Virus record (IMG/VR): IMGVR_UViG_3300014497_000003
Coordinates: 1-49,146 of that record
Reading direction: 5' to 3' (one strand)
DNA: 49,146 nucleotides
From: a virus
Of this stretch, positions 1,626-27,975 are shown one piece after another. The stretch's first letter is position 1; each line of letters begins with the position of its first letter. Position numbers and translations under genes: made by a program. The notes below the pieces were generated by a model. It was given only the letters and a program-made list of their open reading frames with translations, searched no databases and was not told where the DNA came from.

Positions 1626-4276
1626 GGCGCTGAATTATCATCATCGGAATAGACTAACTCATTATACGTCATCGCTTCCACGTTCGCAGAGTCAGTGCCA
1701 TTTGGGGAGATTGAGGTAATCAAGACCTTGTACCCGATGCCAAATAGCAGGTGTGGCGGTTCACGATCTAGCGTTGTATCTGGAGGGAAATCCAGTCCGG
1801 AGATAGACAAATGGAAGTCATCAACACGAGTTGCGATGTATGGGCCAGAGCTAGTTCCGTCTTCGCGGCGCACATACAGATAGTGCGGTCCAGCATCAGA
1901 CCAGTCGAAAGCTTCTGATGATTCAATTACGCCATTGTCGTATTCGACCATGAAAGCCGATTGAGCATAGCCAGGAACATCGTCAGCTACTTGCACATAA
2001 CTCAGATAACGACTATTCAGCGCATCAAGCTCAGTCGCCCAATTGTATTCCCAGCGACGATACTTCAAGGCGCGACGTTGACGCATACCGATACGCCATG
2101 CCTTCGTGCGGTTAGTGCAGCCTTCTGCCTTGATCTTTTGAATACGAGTTCCTGCATCACCGGGAAGTCTGCATTCAACCGTCTCGACCTGCCACGACAC
2201 GCCATCAATATATTCAACGTCAACGCCATCATAATCATCAGGACGAACAGCAGTGAAATCACGCTCAAGGCCGCGTGTCATGTTCTGCGGCGTATACATT
2301 GATTCGAATACGGCTCTAGGTTCATCACGAGCCGGACGCAACAAGCCTCGATCTACCGTGAGCTCACTAAACCCGCAAGACAGCGCGTCATTGATTACCC
2401 CCTTAGCTGTGCCGTTGGTGTTCGTTGCTTGGTCGTAGTGATCGCCACGAGCCTTCCAGATGGCGTCTAGACGATCAAGCTCCATAAGGTCAATGTCTGC
2501 ATCTGTGTACCCAACGTTTTTGGCGACGTAAGCGAAGAACGGTGCAATATCACGAGTTGCAATGGGAGCGGTCCATGATCCAGCAACTCGGGTGGGTAGC
2601 TTTCGTGTGGCCTCGACTGAAACCATAGCCTCAGACTGAGCAGAAAGCCGGTCTCCGCCGCGAGCATTTACGCTCATAACAGTTACATCTGCATAAGAGG
2701 TCGGAGCAGACAGCAGCGAGCGGGCACCATACCAAACAGTGTCATTATTGATCTCTGTTTCTCGCTCGCCCTGCTGAATAAAGCGTTTCTTGATCCGAGC
2801 TTCTGGACGCATAGGATATGGAAGATCTACGCGATTAGTGAAGCCTTGAGAGTCCAAGGACGATCCGTTATGGGTCTTATCAATGACTGTCCACGCACCT
2901 GCAATATCCATATCCCGGTATTCGAATGTATGAAAAGCACTGACCTGATAAACCTGACCTTCTCGACCAAGACCACAAAGACCGCTAGGCATGAATACAT
3001 CCCACTCAATCGCCGTAGCCAGTTCGCCAAACGGGCACATAGCAAACGGGCCACGATAGCCGCCTTCAAGATTTGATGGGTCCAGTGTGATAGAGGCTGA
3101 TGCGGTTTCAAGATACGTAAAACCTGGGAAGTCAGTATCTACAGCGCCAGTTGAATCAAGTCGCTGCACAGTGATTTGCGGCGTACTGAATACAGTGATG
3201 CGGAACCGCTGGCCACGAGGCGCAATACTGGCCGGAAGAGTACCAATAGTGAGCCCAGTAACCGGAGCGCCACCATCAAAGTTAAGCGTCATCTGCGCAG
3301 GAGTGGCGCCTACAGATGGCGTGAAGCTGTTAACCACATACAGGCCGGCGTTTGTTCCTGCAATCTCAATGGTATCGCCAACGCTTGGAGCAAGCATATC
3401 GAGCGCAAATCCACGCACGATATCGCGAACACCAGCACCGCCATCAACGAAATCGTACTGGTATGAGACAAGAATCCTGACGATCAAGCCAATTGTCCAG
3501 TCGCCAGGAAACGCACCGGCACCAGACGGGATTGTTACAGTGTAACCACTGAAAACTTGAGACGTCGCGACATAACCATTGGTTAATGGAGTCGAAACAG
3601 TCAGCTCAAGCCCTGATGACCCGTTAGAGCTAGATCCAACCTCTGTTACATCGTTCCACCACAGATGCGCTGGATCTGCTGACAAGTTTGCACCGGGTCC
3701 ATACACGTTAATTACAACATCAGCGCCAAGAGAAATTGCGGGAGTGTCGCCAATCAGGATCTTGTTGCCTGGAACTTCGTGCTCGCCTTTGCCAATGCAC
3801 AGAAGCATTTCGACATGCTGCTCACGAGGACCGGCAAAGTATCGGCGTGGAGGCAGCAAGTAGTCAGGGTAAACCTTACGAGTTCCTGCAATCTCTCGGA
3901 TTGGAGAGTTAAGTTTTACCTTGTTGCCCTTGATCGATGCTTCGTTAATGCCTTCGCCGTTTTGAGCGGTAGAACTAACCTTGGGAATCTTAGGGGTAAG
4001 AGTCTTGATAGCGACAAGAAACAGTGCTCCGAAGAACAGTTCTGTACCTTTTGGCTCAATGACGATATCGACAACATCAGTCGCGGCGAACGAACAGATA
4101 GCCCACTGCTCATGCGGAATAACCTCGCCATTCAGAGAAACGCTGATCGGGTGAACATCCATATCTGAATAGCTAGGCACATTCTTCGCCAGCCACTCGC
4201 GCACAGTCATTCCGCCTACCGCGAATTCTTCGCTAGGCTCGTCATTCAGTTTCGATCCGAATACTCTAATTGTCAC
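1622..4276 (-). CDS. Tail tip / host specificity protein J-like
   Basis: 884 residues. Residues 1-80 resemble a beta-grasp N-terminal part (MTIRVFGSKLNDEP...), followed by a hydrophobic LFFGALFLVAIKTL stretch and then the long hub region. The 'IREIAGTRKVYPDYL ... LLCIGKGEHEVPGNKILIGDTP' segment is characteristic of J-like central hub proteins, and the C-terminal half has fibronectin-like segments. Lambda J is about 1130 residues, so this is a shorter variety. In the family it forms the tail tip and contacts the receptor. It overlaps the NlpC/P60 gene by 11 nt, in the usual order (DUF1833-like, NlpC/P60, J). Confidence 0.85.
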   Translation of the reverse strand: MTIRVFGSKLNDEPSEEFAVGGMTVREWLAKNVPSYSDMDVHPISVSLNGEVIPHEQWAICSFAATDVVDIVIEPKGTELFFGALFLVAIKTLTPKIPKVSSTAQNGEGINEASIKGNKVKLNSPIREIAGTRKVYPDYLLPPRRYFAGPREQHVEMLLCIGKGEHEVPGNKILIGDTPAISLGADVVINVYGPGANLSADPAHLWWNDVTEVGSSSNGSSGLELTVSTPLTNGYVATSQVFSGYTVTIPSGAGAFPGDWTIGLIVRILVSYQYDFVDGGAGVRDIVRGFALDMLAPSVGDTIEIAGTNAGLYVVNSFTPSVGATPAQMTLNFDGGAPVTGLTIGTLPASIAPRGQRFRITVFSTPQITVQRLDSTGAVDTDFPGFTYLETASASITLDPSNLEGGYRGPFAMCPFGELATAIEWDVFMPSGLCGLGREGQVYQVSAFHTFEYRDMDIAGAWTVIDKTHNGSSLDSQGFTNRVDLPYPMRPEARIKKRFIQQGERETEINNDTVWYGARSLLSAPTSYADVTVMSVNARGGDRLSAQSEAMVSVEATRKLPTRVAGSWTAPIATRDIAPFFAYVAKNVGYTDADIDLMELDRLDAIWKARGDHYDQATNTNGTAKGVINDALSCGFSELTVDRGLLRPARDEPRAVFESMYTPQNMTRGLERDFTAVRPDDYDGVDVEYIDGVSWQVETVECRLPGDAGTRIQKIKAEGCTNRTKAWRIGMRQRRALKYRRWEYNWATELDALNSRYLSYVQVADDVPGYAQSAFMVEYDNGVIESSEAFDWSDAGPHYLYVRREDGTSSGPYIATRVDDFHLSISGLDFPPDTTLDREPPHLLFGIGYKVLITSISPNGTDSANVEAMTYNELVYSDDDNSAP

Positions 4277-4658
4277 GGTAGTAGATCACTCTTAGATATT
4301 GGGATTCGAAATCACTAACGCGCATCAGTCGAGCCCCCTTCTTCGGGTTAATCTCTAGCGCGTGCAATCCATTTTCTAGTTCAATTATAACAGCGACATG
4401 GATGCATAAAGGCCCGCGAAATACGGCTGCGATTGCTCCGTGTTCTGGCGGGCACTCTTCCATGCTGGCGGATTCTTGCTGGTAAGCGCGGGTGAATTCT
4501 TTTGGCTGGGTATTGCGGATTGATCCGAATGATGGGAGTAGGCGTTTTCCGCAGTGGGTATGCCTAACTTCGCGACAGAGACCCCAGCAATCAAACTTGT
4601 TAGGGCCTCGTGCGCCATCTTCGTATGTAGCTGACAGGTAATGCGTAATCCAACTCAT
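4266..4658 (-). CDS. NlpC/P60-family tail peptidase (lambda K-like)
   Basis: 130 residues. The NlpC/P60 fold is shown by FDCWGLCREV, where Cys24 is the predicted nucleophile, and by CIHVAVIIE, where His87 is the predicted general base. Family members at the tail tip cut peptidoglycan cross-links during DNA entry. The start is the ATG overlapping the preceding stop as ATGA; a longer reading frame exists upstream but would lie inside the previous gene. Catalytic residues appear intact. Confidence 0.85.
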   Translation of the reverse strand: MSWITHYLSATYEDGARGPNKFDCWGLCREVRHTHCGKRLLPSFGSIRNTQPKEFTRAYQQESASMEECPPEHGAIAAVFRGPLCIHVAVIIELENGLHALEINPKKGARLMRVSDFESQYLRVIYYRDN

Positions 4659-5143: not shown

Positions 5144-7656
5144 GTTCCTTGTCTCCGCGTGCCTGTAAGCGAGTTAATCATTCTACCTGTTTTACCATCG
5201 CCCATTCCGTCGCCGACTACTACATCAATGACCCAAGCTTTATCCGCATCGCTGAACTTGCTAGTTGTCGTAGCTGCTTGGCCTGAGTAGTTGTTGACAT
5301 TAACGATTGGAGCCGCTGCTTGCGATCCGCCTGATGCTGCATCCTTGTTACTAACTACGTCACCGCGACTGTTAGGCATCATGTATTGACGGCCGTTTGC
5401 CGCGTTGAAAATCTCGGGCGCGCCGGTTTCGTTTACTCGGTACATGCCATTTGCCTGCACTGGTCCGCCAAGAGCGCGACCGCCAGCAATGGCTAGTCCA
5501 GACGCCAGCATGTTAGTAGAAGTGATAGCAGCAGCAGCAGGAACTGCGTTAGCGCCGAACGATGCAAGGGATGCCATGGCAGCAGCGGGGGCCCATGCAG
5601 AAGCTACGATTGCAGCTTCACCCACAGAAGCCGCCGCAGAGGCAGCTGCGGTTGCCTGGCCCACGGTAGCCATAACGATCTGCTGCTTAACCCACTCAAT
5701 GCCAGCCTGAACGAACGAACCGATAACGGCATTCAGTACGGTGTTGGCGATATTACCAAGCGCATCTTGAAGGCTCATGGTTCCAGACAGGAGCCCGCCA
5801 AGAGCTTGTGTGCCAGCCGTTCCTAGCGCAGTAAGACCATCCATCAGTGCCTGATTACCAGCAGACTGAGCCGCGAAACGCTGTGTTTCGATCTCCATCA
5901 TGCGAGCGTTGTATTCGGTTTCTGCTTGCTCCTTGAGTGCGAGATAGTCAGTGTCGCTCAGCAACTTCATGTCGTTGACGGTTTGTAGGTCTTTCAGTTG
6001 CTGCGTATACCCCTGAGTAGCCGCCGCAGCAGGATCTACACGAGCAAGCGTATCCTTTGCCGTCTTGGCGTCATAGAAGGCGCCAGCAATGTCTCTGATA
6101 GATTGGATTTGCTCAGGAGTGGCGTATTTGTTTAGGCTTAGCTGAGCCTGGTCCTGTGCAAGCTCGCGTGCAGATTGGCCTACACTAGCAAGCTCAACGC
6201 CTAGCTTTGTGAACGCTTTCTGGTTTGCCTCAATGCCGGTCTTCTCTTCGTTGGCTGCTTTTTTTGCCTCTGCTTCTGCTTTCTTTGCAGCAGCAGCGGT
6301 TTCAGAGATGCCTTTCTTTTTTGATGCCGTAAGTGTCTTAGTTGCAGTATCTAGCTTGTAGATTTCCGCACCAAGCTCTGCAGCCTGTGCTTTCTCTGCC
6401 TCCGTAGCAGCGCTTCCAAGTTTTTGAATAGCTAGAAGCTTAGCCTTGGCTTCTCCAGACAGTTTTGCTGCATCAGCTTCTTCCTTGAGCTTATCAATTG
6501 CCTTTTGCGAGTCTGTCTTTGGTCCGTTCTGTGGGGCAGTGATCTTTAGTTTGTCACCTTCAGCTTTCTGTTCGGCAACCTTCCTGTTCTGGATTGCTTG
6601 AATCTCGTCGTTGATTCCGTCGATTCTTGTTTTGGTTGCTGCCGCCGTAGCTGTGAGACCAAACTTTATTTGAGTTGCATACTGCTGCTCAGCCGTTGCG
6701 CGCTCTGTTACAAGCTTGTTTAACTGCTGCTGGTCATCAAGCTGACCAGAAGATAGGCGAATACCTAGAGCTACGGCATCCAGAGCTTTAGCTAGTGCGC
6801 GAGAAGCCCCAGCAGCCTGGTCGATCTTGGATATCGCCACGCCCATAGAGTTGACGATTGCATTGCTTGCATCACCAACAGAGCGAGGAACGTTCTTGAA
6901 TTCAGCGTTAACCTTTCCAGTCTGCTCTTGAATGGCAGTCAATACGCGGTCAATCGTCAGCTTGCCGTCAAGCATCTGCTGACGAAGTTCATTGAACGGA
7001 ATACCAAGGCCGTCAGCGATTTTTCGACCAAGCTCTGGCATCTGCTCAATGATTGAGTTGAATTCTTCAGCGCGGAGAGTGCCGCCCGCTACTGACTGGC
7101 TGAACTGGCGAAGTGCAGCGCTGATCTCTTCTGCGCTTGAACCGCCAATCTTGCCAATCTTTTGCAGTGTGTCGGTCAGGCTAAGCACTTGATCACGAGT
7201 GACGCCAAGGCTAGTCAGGGATGCCGTCAGGCTTTCCCATAGCTTAATGGTTGTCGTTAAGTCAGAGCCACCAGCGGAAGAGATCTGGATCAGAGCTGCG
7301 TAGTTTGTCTTGGCGTCGGAAGAAGTAGCAGACAGGCGCTTAACTCGCGACTCAAGCAGCGTGAACTGCTCACTTAGCTTTTGCAAGTTAGCAAGCGCCT
7401 GCATGGATACGATACCCGCGATTGCGCCAGCCAGCGGAGTAATCGCCGTACCAAATTTAGACGACTCACTGCCGGCAGTAGACATGCTCTTGCCGAGAGT
7501 GTTCATGCTCTTGGATGAGTTAGCGGCAGCTTTGTCGGTCTTATTGAACCCAGTTTGTAGGCCATCTAGGCTCTTGTTGACATTCTGCGAGCCGGTTAAA
7601 ACTTGCGCCGTCTCGATTTCAACTTGGTATTGGATGGATCCGGCACTGATAGTCAT
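5140..7656 (-). CDS. Tail tape measure protein
   Basis: 838 residues. Residues about 75-235 form the tape-measure N-terminal domain (SGGSDLTTTIKLWESL, FSQSVAGGTLRAEEFNSI, EQMPELGRKIADGLGI). A central region (about 310-580) is Lys/Glu/Ala-rich coiled coil, followed by a Gly/Ala-rich hydrophobic segment (about 610-730) that would cross the host membrane on ejection. The C-terminal end (NVNNYSGQAATTTSKF) resembles lambda-type tape measures. At about 0.15 nm per residue the tail would be near 125 nm. It is the longest tail gene and is coupled at both ends to its neighbours. Confidence 0.9.
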   Translation of the reverse strand: MTISAGSIQYQVEIETAQVLTGSQNVNKSLDGLQTGFNKTDKAAANSSKSMNTLGKSMSTAGSESSKFGTAITPLAGAIAGIVSMQALANLQKLSEQFTLLESRVKRLSATSSDAKTNYAALIQISSAGGSDLTTTIKLWESLTASLTSLGVTRDQVLSLTDTLQKIGKIGGSSAEEISAALRQFSQSVAGGTLRAEEFNSIIEQMPELGRKIADGLGIPFNELRQQMLDGKLTIDRVLTAIQEQTGKVNAEFKNVPRSVGDASNAIVNSMGVAISKIDQAAGASRALAKALDAVALGIRLSSGQLDDQQQLNKLVTERATAEQQYATQIKFGLTATAAATKTRIDGINDEIQAIQNRKVAEQKAEGDKLKITAPQNGPKTDSQKAIDKLKEEADAAKLSGEAKAKLLAIQKLGSAATEAEKAQAAELGAEIYKLDTATKTLTASKKKGISETAAAAKKAEAEAKKAANEEKTGIEANQKAFTKLGVELASVGQSARELAQDQAQLSLNKYATPEQIQSIRDIAGAFYDAKTAKDTLARVDPAAAATQGYTQQLKDLQTVNDMKLLSDTDYLALKEQAETEYNARMMEIETQRFAAQSAGNQALMDGLTALGTAGTQALGGLLSGTMSLQDALGNIANTVLNAVIGSFVQAGIEWVKQQIVMATVGQATAAASAAASVGEAAIVASAWAPAAAMASLASFGANAVPAAAAITSTNMLASGLAIAGGRALGGPVQANGMYRVNETGAPEIFNAANGRQYMMPNSRGDVVSNKDAASGGSQAAAPIVNVNNYSGQAATTTSKFSDADKAWVIDVVVGDGMGDGKTGRMINSLTGTRRQGT

Positions 7657-22531: not shown

Positions 22532-24190
22532 TTAGCCTCTCCTTAAACGTGCTGGGAGAAAAACTCCACCCGATGGCGCCTGCTCAATCAGCATCTCGGC
22601 CACGGCATCGAACATAGGATCGAGTTGGTCGTCATGCTTATGCGAGTCGTCAGCGCTGAAGTCCGCTACTTCCGCCAGGAACGGCAGAACCCAGTCAGTC
22701 TTGGCGATCAGCTTGCCGTTGCTGTCTTGCGTGCGAAGGATCGGATAGCCATCTTCGTTCAGGATTGCAGGCACGAACACACGCCCATTCTTGACATAGC
22801 TCTGGATATCCAGGCAGCGCGACACTTTATTGTTGTCAGGACCGCGAGGAATGGCCTTGATCGGGATATGCTTCTTATTGGTCAGCGTCTGAATCAATCC
22901 TGTGCCGCTGGCCTTGTCCTCAATCGCCATATGCCTGATGTGCCCGCCATCCCACGACGACCATTCAGCCCAAGCGTTCTGCGCAGTCGTGATCAGTTCG
23001 TCAGCGTCCCACTTGCCGCGCCTAACATCGATCAGATAGGCGTTGTTATCGACGCCAAGACCCCATAGCTCGAACACCGAGTAGTCGTTCTGCTCGCCTT
23101 TCTTCTGCGCTGTATCCGCGTATACGGCTCGCCACTGCATTTGCGGCAACTGCTCGTATCGTTGCAGCCATGCAGAGTCAAGAAGTCCACCAGTAAGCGC
23201 TTGAGGACGCTGCATGTACTGAGACATGAACGTGTACTCATCCCGCTCCCAAAGCGACATAAGGTCGTTAACGTGCTCCATTTCCGGCCAATATGACCAG
23301 TAACGAACGCCGCCTTTCTCGACTGAATCAGTGTCCTTGACCGTATCCCAGCACATTTGCCGATATGGTTCTGGCAGTGTGGCGATGTAATCCTCTGTAA
23401 CCAGCGCAGGGATAGCTATATTCTTGAACTCGACACCCATGCCTCCAGCCATCATGAAGCCGGTAGCGTCCATCGTGTGGAGGCGCTGCTGGATGGAAAC
23501 GATAGGCGTCGGGTGTTCTTTGGACTTGTCGCCACGACGAGAGCGAAACGTACCAGTGAGTCGCGCATTGCTGGCGTCACGCTTCGTATTCGAAAGCATG
23601 TCGTCAGGCTTGTTCAGGTCATCAAATAGCAAGCAGCCGGAGAACTCATGCCCAAAGTAGCCAGCGCGACCACCTGTAATCTGCCCGCCAGCTGACTTGC
23701 TGATGGTCTGCCCGACTGATCGCCCCTTGTCGTCGATCAGCTCCCACTCTTCAGCCTGGTTGACGCCAAATACCGATGGCCACAGTTCTTGGTATTCCTT
23801 GGACGCAATAATGTCCCGCGTGCGCCTGGAGTTTCGTCGTACAAGCGAGTCAGCGTAGGATACGTTGAGATTGCGGAAGCGGCGAAGTTTCTTGGACTGC
23901 ACCTTTGTGTTGATGTAGGCCGGCAGATGGATAGAGAAGAATTCCGTCTTCGTGCCGCCCGGTGGAATGTTGACGATCAGATTTCCAGGCTTGAGCTTGC
24001 CGTTAATCAGGTCGTCAATCGACGCCGCCATCATCTTGTGATGCCAGTTCACCAGCAGGCGATCACCCTGAAGCAGCTCAAACCAAATGCGAGTGAAGTT
24101 CAGGAATGACTTCTCGGACTTCTGCTTGAGTATCAGCCTGTCCGCGAAGTTCATATCCTCCCAATCAAGCAGCTTATTAGTCGAGATCAT
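22532..24190 (-). CDS. terL: Terminase large subunit
   Basis: 552 residues. The ATPase part has a Walker-A-like VNIPPGGTKTEFFS (about residues 73-86) and Walker B GCLLFDDLNKP (about 186-196). The C-terminal nuclease part begins AVYADTAQKKGEQNDYSVFE (first acidic residue) with MAIEDKASGTGLIQTL later and DQLDPMFDAVAEML near the end. It cuts and pumps DNA into the prohead. It starts inside the small subunit gene (14-base overlap). Confidence 0.9.
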   Translation of the reverse strand: MISTNKLLDWEDMNFADRLILKQKSEKSFLNFTRIWFELLQGDRLLVNWHHKMMAASIDDLINGKLKPGNLIVNIPPGGTKTEFFSIHLPAYINTKVQSKKLRRFRNLNVSYADSLVRRNSRRTRDIIASKEYQELWPSVFGVNQAEEWELIDDKGRSVGQTISKSAGGQITGGRAGYFGHEFSGCLLFDDLNKPDDMLSNTKRDASNARLTGTFRSRRGDKSKEHPTPIVSIQQRLHTMDATGFMMAGGMGVEFKNIAIPALVTEDYIATLPEPYRQMCWDTVKDTDSVEKGGVRYWSYWPEMEHVNDLMSLWERDEYTFMSQYMQRPQALTGGLLDSAWLQRYEQLPQMQWRAVYADTAQKKGEQNDYSVFELWGLGVDNNAYLIDVRRGKWDADELITTAQNAWAEWSSWDGGHIRHMAIEDKASGTGLIQTLTNKKHIPIKAIPRGPDNNKVSRCLDIQSYVKNGRVFVPAILNEDGYPILRTQDSNGKLIAKTDWVLPFLAEVADFSADDSHKHDDQLDPMFDAVAEMLIEQAPSGGVFLPARLRRG

Positions 24191-24671
24191 CGAGCTTGCT
24201 CCCCAGCTCTAGTTCGGCCTGCTTGTAGTCTGCGGGGGAATAGTTGACGTGCGTTACGGTGCCTGAGTTGCTGACTTCGGACTTCTCAACCAACCCAATA
24301 TCCCGCGCAATCAGCGTAGGGTTCATCAGTCCAGCAACCGCATTCTCGAACTTGTACTGTTTCATGCGGTCTTCGATCTCATCGCAGACTAGATCGAATT
24401 CTTCGCTGATACGGTAGTTCTGCCAGGTGTGACGATGAATGCCTAGGTGCAGGCATAGGCCGACGATGGTAACGGCGCGTGGTTTCTTCAGCTCGGCAGT
24501 AAAGATCTGACCTTGAGCGCAGAAGTGCTTCTCTTCAATCAGCGGGTTATGATCAGCCCACTCAAGATAACCCAGGCAAGCCTCACGCAAATCATCAGGT
24601 GTCTCAAACATTCTTGAGCGCCCGACAGTAGAGGTCTTATCCCCTGTATGTACGATTGGTCTATTAGCCAT
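24177..24671 (-). CDS. terS: Terminase small subunit
   Basis: 164 residues. FETPDDLREACLGYLEWAD, TIVGLCLHLGIHRHTWQNYR (HTH-like DNA-binding part) and KFENAVAGLMNPTLIARDIG are typical of GP3-like DNA packaging proteins. It recognises the packaging site. Its ribosome site GGAGG lies within the stem of the hairpin at 24673-24693. Confidence 0.85.
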   Translation of the reverse strand: MANRPIVHTGDKTSTVGRSRMFETPDDLREACLGYLEWADHNPLIEEKHFCAQGQIFTAELKKPRAVTIVGLCLHLGIHRHTWQNYRISEEFDLVCDEIEDRMKQYKFENAVAGLMNPTLIARDIGLVEKSEVSNSGTVTHVNYSPADYKQAELELGSKLDDLD

Positions 24672-24703: not shown

Positions 24704-25030
24704 TCATTCGCTAGCTTTCTTTTCCGCGAATCTGGCAGCGAAGGCTTTAACCTGGTCGATGCCGAAGACTGCGACGGCGCCACCGATTGCGAAACACCAT
24801 CCATTAGACAGGCCGAATGCCTCGACTGCTGAGCCGGCCATGAAGGTAATGATGCCGCCTGCACTAACCTCCCAAAATGAGGTCCAGAATGTTCGCTCAC
24901 TATTACGAAACGCCATTACGGTACTTAACGCGACGTTCATTGCCGCTGCTTTGAGTGGCTCTGGTACGGCAGCCCACAGTTGAGCTATTACGTTTGGATC
25001 GCCGGTAGGATCGCTCATTGGCTTCTTCAT
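24704..25030 (-). CDS. Holin (lambda-family, Phage_holin_3-like)
   Basis: 108 residues, or 104 from the internal ATG at 25018, which has GAAGAAG upstream. DPNVIAQLWAAVPEPLKAA, then hydrophobic helices (EVSAGGIITFMAGSAVEAFG; GWCFAIGGAVAVFGIDQV) and a charged end (KAFAARFAEKKASE). It makes the membrane hole that frees the endolysin. It stands first in the terminase unit, 18 kb from the endolysin and spanins, an unusual split lysis set. Confidence 0.75.
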   Translation of the reverse strand: MKKPMSDPTGDPNVIAQLWAAVPEPLKAAAMNVALSTVMAFRNSERTFWTSFWEVSAGGIITFMAGSAVEAFGLSNGWCFAIGGAVAVFGIDQVKAFAARFAEKKASE

Positions 25031-25145: not shown

Positions 25146-25277
25146 TAAAAACGCCCCGATTTGAGCATAACTGAAGTCATAGGCTTGGGGCGTGTATTGC
25201 TTCGACCGGGAACTCCCAGTCCATTTAATCCGGAAGCTAACAGGATTTCAGGTCCTGCGCTGGCATTGTCGCCGGAT
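25146..25277 (-). ncRNA. Candidate structured small RNA
   Basis: Read on the minus strand from a predicted start near 25277: ATCCGG (25277-25272) pairs with CCGGAT (25233-25228), enclosing hairpin CAGGA-7-TCCTG (25257-25241). Next is GACUGGG-AGUU-CCCGGUC (25221-25204), 7 bp with one G-U that would be C-A on the other strand, favouring minus-strand transcription. It ends in ACGCCCC/GGGGCGT (25193-25187, 25157-25151) plus T-run. No open reading frame of note. A tRNA was considered and rejected. Confidence 0.5.
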
Positions 25278-25302
25278 GCATAAATGATAACACATGCATA
25301 AA
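25275..25302 (-). promoter_or_regulatory. Promoter and operator-like repeats of the small RNA
   Basis: Minus strand TGTTATCAT is an extended -10 (25292-25284) whose start point falls on the first base of the RNA's first stem. ATGCATAAA occurs twice in direct order (25276-25284 and 25294-25302), each containing the palindrome ATGCAT, on both sides of the -10. Confidence 0.45.
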
Positions 25303-25339: not shown

Positions 25340-25372
25340 AAAAAAATGCCAGTCGGACGGTTCACGACTGGC
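25340..25372 (-). terminator. Terminator of the early minus-strand operon
   Basis: GCCAGTCG / CGACTGGC perfect 8-bp stem followed by A then seven T on the minus strand. It ends the run of small genes that starts at 33284. Confidence 0.85.
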
Positions 25373-26450: not shown

Positions 26451-27935
26451 TCAGCGAAAGAATTTACCATTTACGCAGTGAATCAATGTGCGTTTCCCGT
26501 TCGCGTATGTGATGTCATGCGTATGCGTCCATCCGCTAGGCGATCCGACGTTATAGCCCATATCCATCTTGCCACTAAGACCTACAGAGTGAGCCCCGTC
26601 GATTATCTCGGCGCCGTGACTGTGACCCTTTGTAACCTTAGCCCCCATGTTCGCAAACCCCTTTGTAGAGCCTCGTGCGCCGTTTGGCCCTGCGTGGCCA
26701 TGCCAACCGAACTCGATTCCGTGCTTTTTGAACGACTCGCCAGGCTTAAGCCAGTGAACGGTAGAGCTATTCGACATCATGCGGTCCATCCAGTAGCGAA
26801 AAGGGTCGCAACTGCTGCCTTCCTGAATGGCTCTGAGCATTGCGCTCTTTGTCTCGTGGTAGACGATGGCGTTCTCTAAGTCGTGCGCGTGCTCTGCCTT
26901 CTCCAACCACTGCCCGAAGTGGTCATGGTGGTTGCTCGACACCATCACTACTTTCGGAGCCCAGGTAGATATGCGGTCAAGCACCTTTGCCGTCGTCTCC
27001 AGCTCACGCAAGACGCTAGACGTATTGGTCACGTGGCGGCGGAACTTCTCAAAGTAGCGGTTATGATGGCCGGCAGATCCGAAGTTGAGAACGTCATGCT
27101 GAACGATAGCGCGAGGTTTGATACGCCCCGCAAGCTCAGAAGTCGCGTCCAGCACACGCTTATCTGCCAGCTCTGCGTGTGTGTCACCCATCGCCAGAAC
27201 TTCTGCGTCTGGAGCGTCCTCAATGCCCTTTGGCGTATATCGCATATCCAAGTCGATGAACGATCCGTCCTTGACTGGGCAGATGTGCCGCATGTAGTTG
27301 CTGCTGCCGTCAACCTCAACGACAACCGCGCCCATCGTGTGATGGAAGGAGCCGCGAGCACCTGCGTTAGTGTCGCTGTACTGCTCGATAGTGCAGGCGC
27401 CTGTAGTCATAACCAGCTTTGCATGCTCCCCAACGTGCGTAGGAACCGACTTAAGCGCGATCTTGGTGTGCCCTATGATTGCCGAGTCAGAACCGCTAAC
27501 TGTGAGCCACCCTTGAAGCGGGTTTATGGCTGTTGGCTGGATCTTGATGTCAGCCAGAACAACCAAACCTTTGGAAATCTTGGTGCGCTCATGAGTGATG
27601 AACGGGGTTACGCGAGAATCCCACCACTCGTCATTTTCTACTTCATTCTTCCGCGTAGGGTTTTTGTAGCGGATAGGGATAACGATTAGCTGAGCATCGT
27701 TCGCCTCACAGTACACAGCTAGGGACTTCATGAATCCAGAGTGAGCCTTGGTCGCATTCACTGCCGACGTAATAACGAAAGTCTTTCCATCTGCAACAGC
27801 GTGCGCATCGTTCGCGCTATCTTCCGGCTTCAACCGCGCCTTCCATCTACGCACAGTCCGCTCATTAATCCCGAGATGATCCGCCGTCTGTTGATTCGTG
27901 TACCCCTGACTCATGCACCACTGAAGCTCTTGCAT
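26451..27935 (-). CDS. HTH plus metallophosphoesterase protein (T5 A1-like)
   Basis: 494 residues. Residues about 1-33 form an HTH (WCMSQGYTNQQTADHLGINE, RTVRRWKARL). The remaining part carries calcineurin-like phosphoesterase signatures in order: VLAMGDTHAEL (about 257), HDVLNF (about 290), MVSSNHHDHFGQW (about 335; Asn-His-Asp variant), FGWHGHAGPNG and VTKGHSHGAEI (C-terminal metal site). Phage T5 A1 and similar early proteins share this kind of nuclease fold and are linked to host DNA destruction; the link here is inference. ATG at 27935 is chosen because GAGGG lies 7 bases before it; an ATG six bases earlier also exists. Confidence 0.65.
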   Translation of the reverse strand: MQELQWCMSQGYTNQQTADHLGINERTVRRWKARLKPEDSANDAHAVADGKTFVITSAVNATKAHSGFMKSLAVYCEANDAQLIVIPIRYKNPTRKNEVENDEWWDSRVTPFITHERTKISKGLVVLADIKIQPTAINPLQGWLTVSGSDSAIIGHTKIALKSVPTHVGEHAKLVMTTGACTIEQYSDTNAGARGSFHHTMGAVVVEVDGSSNYMRHICPVKDGSFIDLDMRYTPKGIEDAPDAEVLAMGDTHAELADKRVLDATSELAGRIKPRAIVQHDVLNFGSAGHHNRYFEKFRRHVTNTSSVLRELETTAKVLDRISTWAPKVVMVSSNHHDHFGQWLEKAEHAHDLENAIVYHETKSAMLRAIQEGSSCDPFRYWMDRMMSNSSTVHWLKPGESFKKHGIEFGWHGHAGPNGARGSTKGFANMGAKVTKGHSHGAEIIDGAHSVGLSGKMDMGYNVGSPSGWTHTHDITYANGKRTLIHCVNGKFFR

Positions 27936-27975
27936 TTTCATCCCTCAACCGATCTTGTGTAAATCCATTATGCAA

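Follow-up and report, generated by a model that had tools for sequence, protein, structure and literature searches.

In the 49,146-nucleotide stretch of viral DNA analysed here (IMG/VR record IMGVR_UViG_3300014497_000003, positions 1 to 49,146; hereafter the window), the minus strand between the early and the late genes probably encodes a modular, stand-alone counter-defence RNA, the 3′ piece of which would mimic the antitoxin RNA of Abi_2 toxins. The predicted non-coding RNA is about 130 nt long (25147-25277, minus strand), is defined by its promoter, its terminator, its module boundaries and a census of arrays in related phages, and runs from module A through module D to an abiF-type hairpin. 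The window encodes a small RNA that is more than a lone sRNA. Two host RNA types linked to Abi_2 are matched by the array, and this match, together with the modular build, is the new element. Judged from the sequences, the RNA would be of a known kind, the phage antitoxin-RNA mimic, in which an orphan abiF-type RNA appears in a new form, as one bead of a shuffled array.

The gene-free slot and its RNA

A first-pass annotation made from the letters had placed no gene between the early-operon terminator and the late holin promoter, and none was found on checking the minus strand between that terminator and the holin gene. The terminator of the early (upstream) operon (25340-25372, minus strand) has a stem GCCAGTCG/CGACTGGC (25348-25372), a loop TGAACCGTC and a T-run, and forms the upstream border of the RNA slot; most relatives have the same loop on different, compensated stems. 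The near-invariance of this minus-strand loop (GTGAACCGTCC) in relatives goes beyond what a terminator needs. Downstream, on the same strand as the RNA, the first late gene encodes a holin (Phage_holin_3_1, 24704-25030) and is followed by the genes for TerS (24177-24671) and TerL (22532-24190), all assigned by Pfam. On the other side, the small early genes in front of the array are themselves directly preceded by a gene for a 496-aa protein (26451-27941, minus strand) with about 34-41% identity to T5-A1-like DNA transfer proteins. The closest phage by terminase is Pectobacterium phage ZF40 (63% identity). When the region and long arrays were compared with annotated phages by near and distant BLAST, only module A (in Pseudomonas phage MR14) and apparent chance matches were returned. 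The presence of module A in MR14, together with array parts on a Pseudomonas plasmid, gives a hint of Pseudomonas hosts.

An extended -10 element, TGTTATCAT (25284-25292, minus strand), puts the predicted +1 at A25277, the first base of an ATCCGG/CCGGAT stem, exactly as the first-pass annotation had read it. This element was found in 30 of 30 collected arrays at a constant spacing to the first module, in a search that itself required GTGnTATCATT, and further arrays outside that pattern also have -10-like boxes; AGAATATNNGC upstream of the -10 is likewise conserved among arrays. A simple sigma-70 scan missed the promoter for want of a good -35. Conservation in related phages supports the proposed small RNA, including a promoter and a terminator of its own. 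Twin ATGCATAAA repeats, which had been taken for operators, are both present in the window. Of the 30 arrays, 16 have an exact upstream copy and one, that of the window, has an exact downstream copy, so the operator role is unsupported.

The position at the early/late boundary had also suggested a switch RNA, that is, a regulatory sRNA that would act by base-pairing on the phage's own change from early to late expression. We found no support for this and regard it as highly improbable: the unit is self-contained and its modules are freely swapped, close relatives differ in modules where the flanking genes are the same, the twin repeats are not conserved, and an unsystematic look at the alignments brought no conserved unpaired antisense stretch to notice.

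All the predicted hairpins were recovered, namely a 5-bp hairpin inside the first stem (CAGGA/UCCUG, 7-nt loop), a 7-bp hairpin with one U-G pair on the minus strand (GACUGGG/CCCGGUC), and a final GC stem (ACGCCCC/GGGGCGU) followed by a T-run. Among the checks proposed with them were folding of 25277-25146 and a search for compensating changes in related phages. In the first, the 132-nt minus strand folded modestly better than its shuffles (z -1.69) and the plus strand equally so (z -1.57), and folding energy alone is therefore no proof of an RNA; the 3′ hairpin folded by itself did better (z -2.94). In the second, covariation appeared in both module A and the 3′ hairpin, and this comparative evidence is what decisively argues for a structured RNA.

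Module A (25228-25277, minus strand) comprises a 6-bp outer stem, an invariant GACAAUGCCAGCG, an AGC/GCU pairing and then a hairpin with a 5-bp stem and a 7-nt loop (CCUGAAA). Among 16 distinct copies, 98.2% of cells are paired and 29 both-side changes occur; seven of the 14 pairs change on both sides, and the score of 0.367 (0.103 in shuffles) was reached by none of 500 shuffles. The 3′ hairpin has 33 both-side changes, again with 0 of 500 shuffles. Module D (25204-25221, minus strand), the 7-bp hairpin GACUGGG-AGUU-CCCGGUC, has a fold z of -2.3 and recurs in many arrays with loops of 4-8 nt. Module A recurs in unrelated phages, some copies lying beside tRNA-like genes, and in MR14, and module D often comes after it in those other phages. 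None of 390 Pseudomonadales genomes contains module A, a point against the counter-defence reading; many 16-mer matches to it were dismissed as chance.

The geometry of module A, with its 5-bp stem and 7-nt loop CCUGAAA or CUUGAAA, could be taken to mean that the RNA is only a tRNA-like decoy, in which module A passes for an anticodon arm that attracts anticodon nucleases and the abiF hairpin is secondary. CUUGAAA equals the anticodon loop of tRNA-Ser(UGA), and the proximity of module A to tRNA-like genes in some other phages would fit as well. Most copies, however, have CCUGAAA, with C at position 33, and no tRNA was called in the window, either by ARAGORN or in Rfam scans (tRNA/tmRNA). We therefore consider a tRNA-like decoy alone to be quite improbable.

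The 3′ hairpin and antitoxin RNAs of Abi_2 toxins

The last module, an abiF-type (Abi_2 antitoxin-like) hairpin that doubles as the intrinsic terminator (25147-25198, minus strand; R1 model and RF03085), appears as a close match to the antitoxin RNAs of Abi_2 (AbiD/AbiF, HEPN) abortive-infection toxins. In Rfam, RF03085 (abiF RNA) matches 25192-25151 over its full length at 28.2 bits (E 0.0041), below the curated gathering threshold of 37 bits. RNAs that lie beside Abi_2 in bacteria also fall below it (L150, L151, L152, L154 and L155, at 28.8-36.9 bits); the threshold thus shuts out genuine ones, and we use the name abiF-like. We built a covariance model, R1, from nine bacterial RNAs only, all beside or near Abi_2 genes, and searched it against 542 kb of phage DNA. 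It found the window hairpin at 57.9 bits (E 2.6e-16 in 542 kb), 27 other phage hairpins at 46-65 bits and a degenerate internal copy in L035 at 23.9 bits, with nothing else above 15 bits. The full-length RF03085 alignment, R1 and the invariant columns all recover the abiF structure and its conserved core (CCAAGCC...GCUCAAAU), and this core is that of the RNAs beside Abi_2 genes. The RNA had been called a candidate novel small RNA in the first-pass annotation; its 3′ hairpin belongs to the known abiF type, and the modular array is the part that is new. CGC-subtype abiF RNAs were absent from the viral contigs by the pattern used.

Members of the abiF family (RF03085), such as RCd22 of C. difficile and AbiFr of PbAbiF, share with the phage hairpin an outer stem, an unpaired A, a 3-bp AGC/GCU inner stem, a variable hairpin and an unpaired CAAAU(C) strand before the outer stem closes. 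The phage hairpin differs from them in being a single motif at the end of a longer, modular RNA, in a phage that lacks an Abi_2 gene, and in scoring below the Rfam threshold. The two motifs of RCd22 and its dependence on both stems contrast with the single motif of the phage RNA and count against the mimic reading.

Within 25 phage copies the core AAGCCTAT...GCTCAAAT is invariant, and the outer and inner stems and the loop vary, the stems with compensation. The core persists in six copies that have no proper T-run (L052, L059, L061, L070, L076 and L035), and it is therefore no feature of the terminator. This bears on the view that the region is an ordinary late-operon leader, with a constitutive promoter and a terminator like lambda pR'-6S-tR', in which the hairpin serves only as a terminator. 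Stable RNAs do lie between regulatory and lysis genes on the late-gene strand, as in the lambdoid late leader (pR'-6S RNA-tR') and the tRNA genes of Stx phages; the position and strand of the window RNA suit the lysis and packaging genes downstream, a T-run follows the hairpin, and a plain terminator hairpin fills the slot of some relatives. A terminator, however, needs no invariant AAGCCTAT/GCTCAAAT core common to Abi_2-linked RNAs of other phyla, and the reading of the hairpin as a simple terminator is weakened by this shared core and by its retention where the T-run is missing. Moreover, a second Abi_2-linked RNA occupies the same place in other arrays, and the modules vary freely. The lambdoid leader and the Stx phage tRNA genes, unlike the window array, have no antitoxin-like hairpin, and we know of no module shuffling in them. 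A leader and nothing else is thus unlikely, and a leader role could coexist with the counter-defence role.

A scan of bacterial genomes with the phage motif gave 15 loci, and at five of them the motif directly precedes the start of an Abi_2 gene, full or partial (four with Pfam E values of 1e-22 to 1e-58, the fifth, L139, by a genome search). At a sixth locus, L127, an apparently truncated Abi_2 was judged by eye. One of the Abi_2 proteins at these loci was identified by PADLOC as AbiD (1e-72). Among 390 genomes of one order (Pseudomonadales), RF03085 occurred in 13 and Abi_2 in 50. Several of the bacterial motif loci are part of a type I restriction operon or close to one. At L129, L130, L132, L133, L134, L138 and L141, where no Abi_2 was seen, the abiF-type RNA stands directly before genes for type I restriction-modification, and L132 has two abiF-type motifs in tandem. 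Orphan motifs are thus also found in type I restriction operons of bacteria with no Abi_2 beside them, and orphan status does not by itself mark an element as counter-defence.

In the phages the toxin gene appears to be absent. The window gave no Abi_2 at E<=10, and 34 phage records that have the motif or the array, many of them fragments, gave none either; both bacterial genomes searched alongside these records do have Abi_2. A type III toxin-antitoxin system joins the RNA and the toxin gene in one operon, and with the toxin gene absent the window RNA is at most the antitoxin half of such a system. The adjoining abiF/Abi_2 gene that goes with abiF RNA is missing both from the window and from the 34 phage records. 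What was found corresponds to the pseudo-ToxI kind, a phage RNA homologous to a bacterial antitoxin RNA with the toxin gene absent.

Orphan Abi_2-type RNAs were also seen in or beside tRNA genes of unrelated phages: in L061 (6395-6447, minus strand) inside a cluster of 20 called tRNA/tmRNA genes, one of them a tmRNA; in L052 (1717-1769) just before two tRNAs; and in L200 (1247-1297) just after a tRNA-Thr.

Module shuffling and a second Abi_2-linked RNA

In about 35 related phages the slot keeps the promoter region and the border terminator, and the strings of modules between them differ. The modules A0, A, B, I, J1, K, J2, F, C, D, E1a, E, G and H are gained and lost in a fixed order, and the array is closed at its 3′ end by the abiF hairpin (about 20), the second Abi_2-linked RNA (4), a plain terminator (8) or other elements; the window has A-D-abiF. 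The slot is also a hot spot for accessory genes between the early and late genes, with small protein genes in or adjoining it in L007 (about 4170-4430), L013, L003, L038 and L012. Elsewhere in related phages, near-threshold matches to int-alpA RNA (Rfam RF02996) were seen in L003 (1378-1444) and L027 (8758-8824), at 31.7 and 33.2 bits.

Pieces J1 and K of such arrays occur on a Pseudomonas silesiensis megaplasmid as well. On plasmid pPL1 (L166, NZ_CP143488.1), the J1/K modules, together with B- and J2-like stretches, lie at 5780-6450. They are flanked on one side by a gene for an HNH protein with a match to type IV restriction models (PADLOC 5e-17) and on the other by a gene similar to the N-terminal part of that protein.

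In four related phages the array ends in ACACGGCCCC...GGGGTTTTTT instead of the abiF hairpin. BLAST of one such array against the 390 genomes led to an element of this type adjoining an Abi_2 gene (L161), at which Rfam gave no match. The flanks of other Abi_2 genes were then found to hold, in many cases, this second RNA just downstream, convergent and with promoter-like sequence. A model, R2, built from seven bacterial copies only, recognised the phage arrays L042 (E 4.5e-11), L031 (2.7e-10), L014 (5.3e-8) and L041 (2.7e-6). In bacteria the AACACGGCCCC...GGGGTTTTTTATTGCC RNA, with promoter-like sequence upstream, lies at 1501-1562 of L161 and also in L167, L172, L176, L178, L184, L189 and L191; by its sequence and location it looks like an undescribed partner RNA of Abi_2. 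The occurrence of two Abi_2-linked RNA kinds at the same 3′ end of the cassette points to selection to deal with Abi_2 proteins, and would otherwise be hard to explain.

Seven of eight viral contigs with the pattern of the second RNA are without Abi_2, and the eighth, L202, holds both the RNA and Abi_2. Complete AbiF systems have been found in prophages (PMC12373285), and this, with L202, could be taken as a sign that the window RNA is left over from an AbiF defence system once carried by a phage, the toxin gene of which was lost. Against this, none of the 34 array or motif phages has Abi_2, many divergent phages have kept the motif through compensatory changes, and it alternates with the second RNA type. 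The covariation suggests that the RNA is under selection without any toxin, and we give a remnant very little credence.

Proposed function and comparison with known systems

In the counter-defence reading, the array would be transcribed during infection and perhaps in other states too. Infection would free the AbiD/AbiF toxin, a HEPN ribonuclease, from the host antitoxin, and the phage hairpin would be a replacement antitoxin supplied in trans, its fixed AAGC...GCUCAAAU core binding the toxin so that it stays inactive. An abiF RNA neutralises AbiF in trans by direct binding and depends on its stem structure (PMC12373285), and PbAbiF binds one RNA per monomer (PMC12737573). According to the same review, the nuclease is inhibited by AbiFr nucleotides that lie in a single-stranded bulge (PMC12737573); the unpaired CAAAU strand, invariant in the phage copies, is taken to be the match of this bulge. 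The same hairpin would end the transcript, so that the late genes would not be read from the array promoter by default. The first-pass annotation had offered a decoy as its other suggestion, and this comes close to our best reading, since the 3′ hairpin would be an antitoxin-RNA mimic.

Modules A and D and the other modules of the relatives would be separate structured domains, most simply understood to mimic the RNA partners of, or act as decoys for, further host defence proteins that bind or cut RNA. We tentatively extend this to the slot as a whole, which could be an exchangeable cassette of promoter and terminator around fixed-order modules, each mimicking or baiting another RNA-dependent defence of the host; this wider reading is somewhat doubtful, two modules being identified, as Abi_2-linked RNA kinds, next to about a dozen others. 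If it holds, phages would adjust the range of defences they counter through the gain and loss of RNA beads, not of proteins, and each of these other modules would be a handle on a possibly unknown RNA-dependent defence. Cas13 is regarded as descended from AbiF, and the AbiF antitoxin RNA as a forerunner of crRNA (PMC12737573).

The nearest precedent is phage PhiTE, mutants of which escape ToxIN by making pseudo-ToxI RNA (PMC5449768). In both cases a phage-encoded RNA resembles the antitoxin of a host toxin and the toxin gene is absent; in PhiTE, however, the target has the ToxN fold, not HEPN, and the RNA consists of tandem repeats of one unit, in contrast to the mixed modules here. The escape of PhiTE was shown experimentally, whereas counter-defence is here inferred from sequence. 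If phages do answer AbiF with RNA alone, as a module of a shuffled array, antitoxin-RNA mimicry would reach beyond this one mutant and be a natural strategy in wide use. Phages also use RNA anti-CRISPRs (PMC10651486). These Racr RNAs (solitary repeat units) are, like the window RNA, small phage RNAs, often right after a promoter, that copy the RNA part of a host defence; they mimic CRISPR repeats and misassemble Cas proteins, whereas the proposed target of the phage array is the AbiD/AbiF toxin.

An abiF RNA has been annotated in a lytic phage, cyanophage S-CREM1 (PMC9964418). The portion of that report cited here gives it as a single Rfam annotation, without an antitoxin-mimic proposal or a modular array, and counts three bacteriophage genomes for abiF in Rfam (PMC9964418).

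A region of lactococcal phage sk1 protects phage 712 from AbiF, according to the title of the cited paper. No abiF-type RNA was found in sk1 or 712. In sk1 (L198), a second tRNA-like gene lies in the middle region (27645-27717) and is missing from 712; it is possibly linked to the protection of 712 from AbiF.
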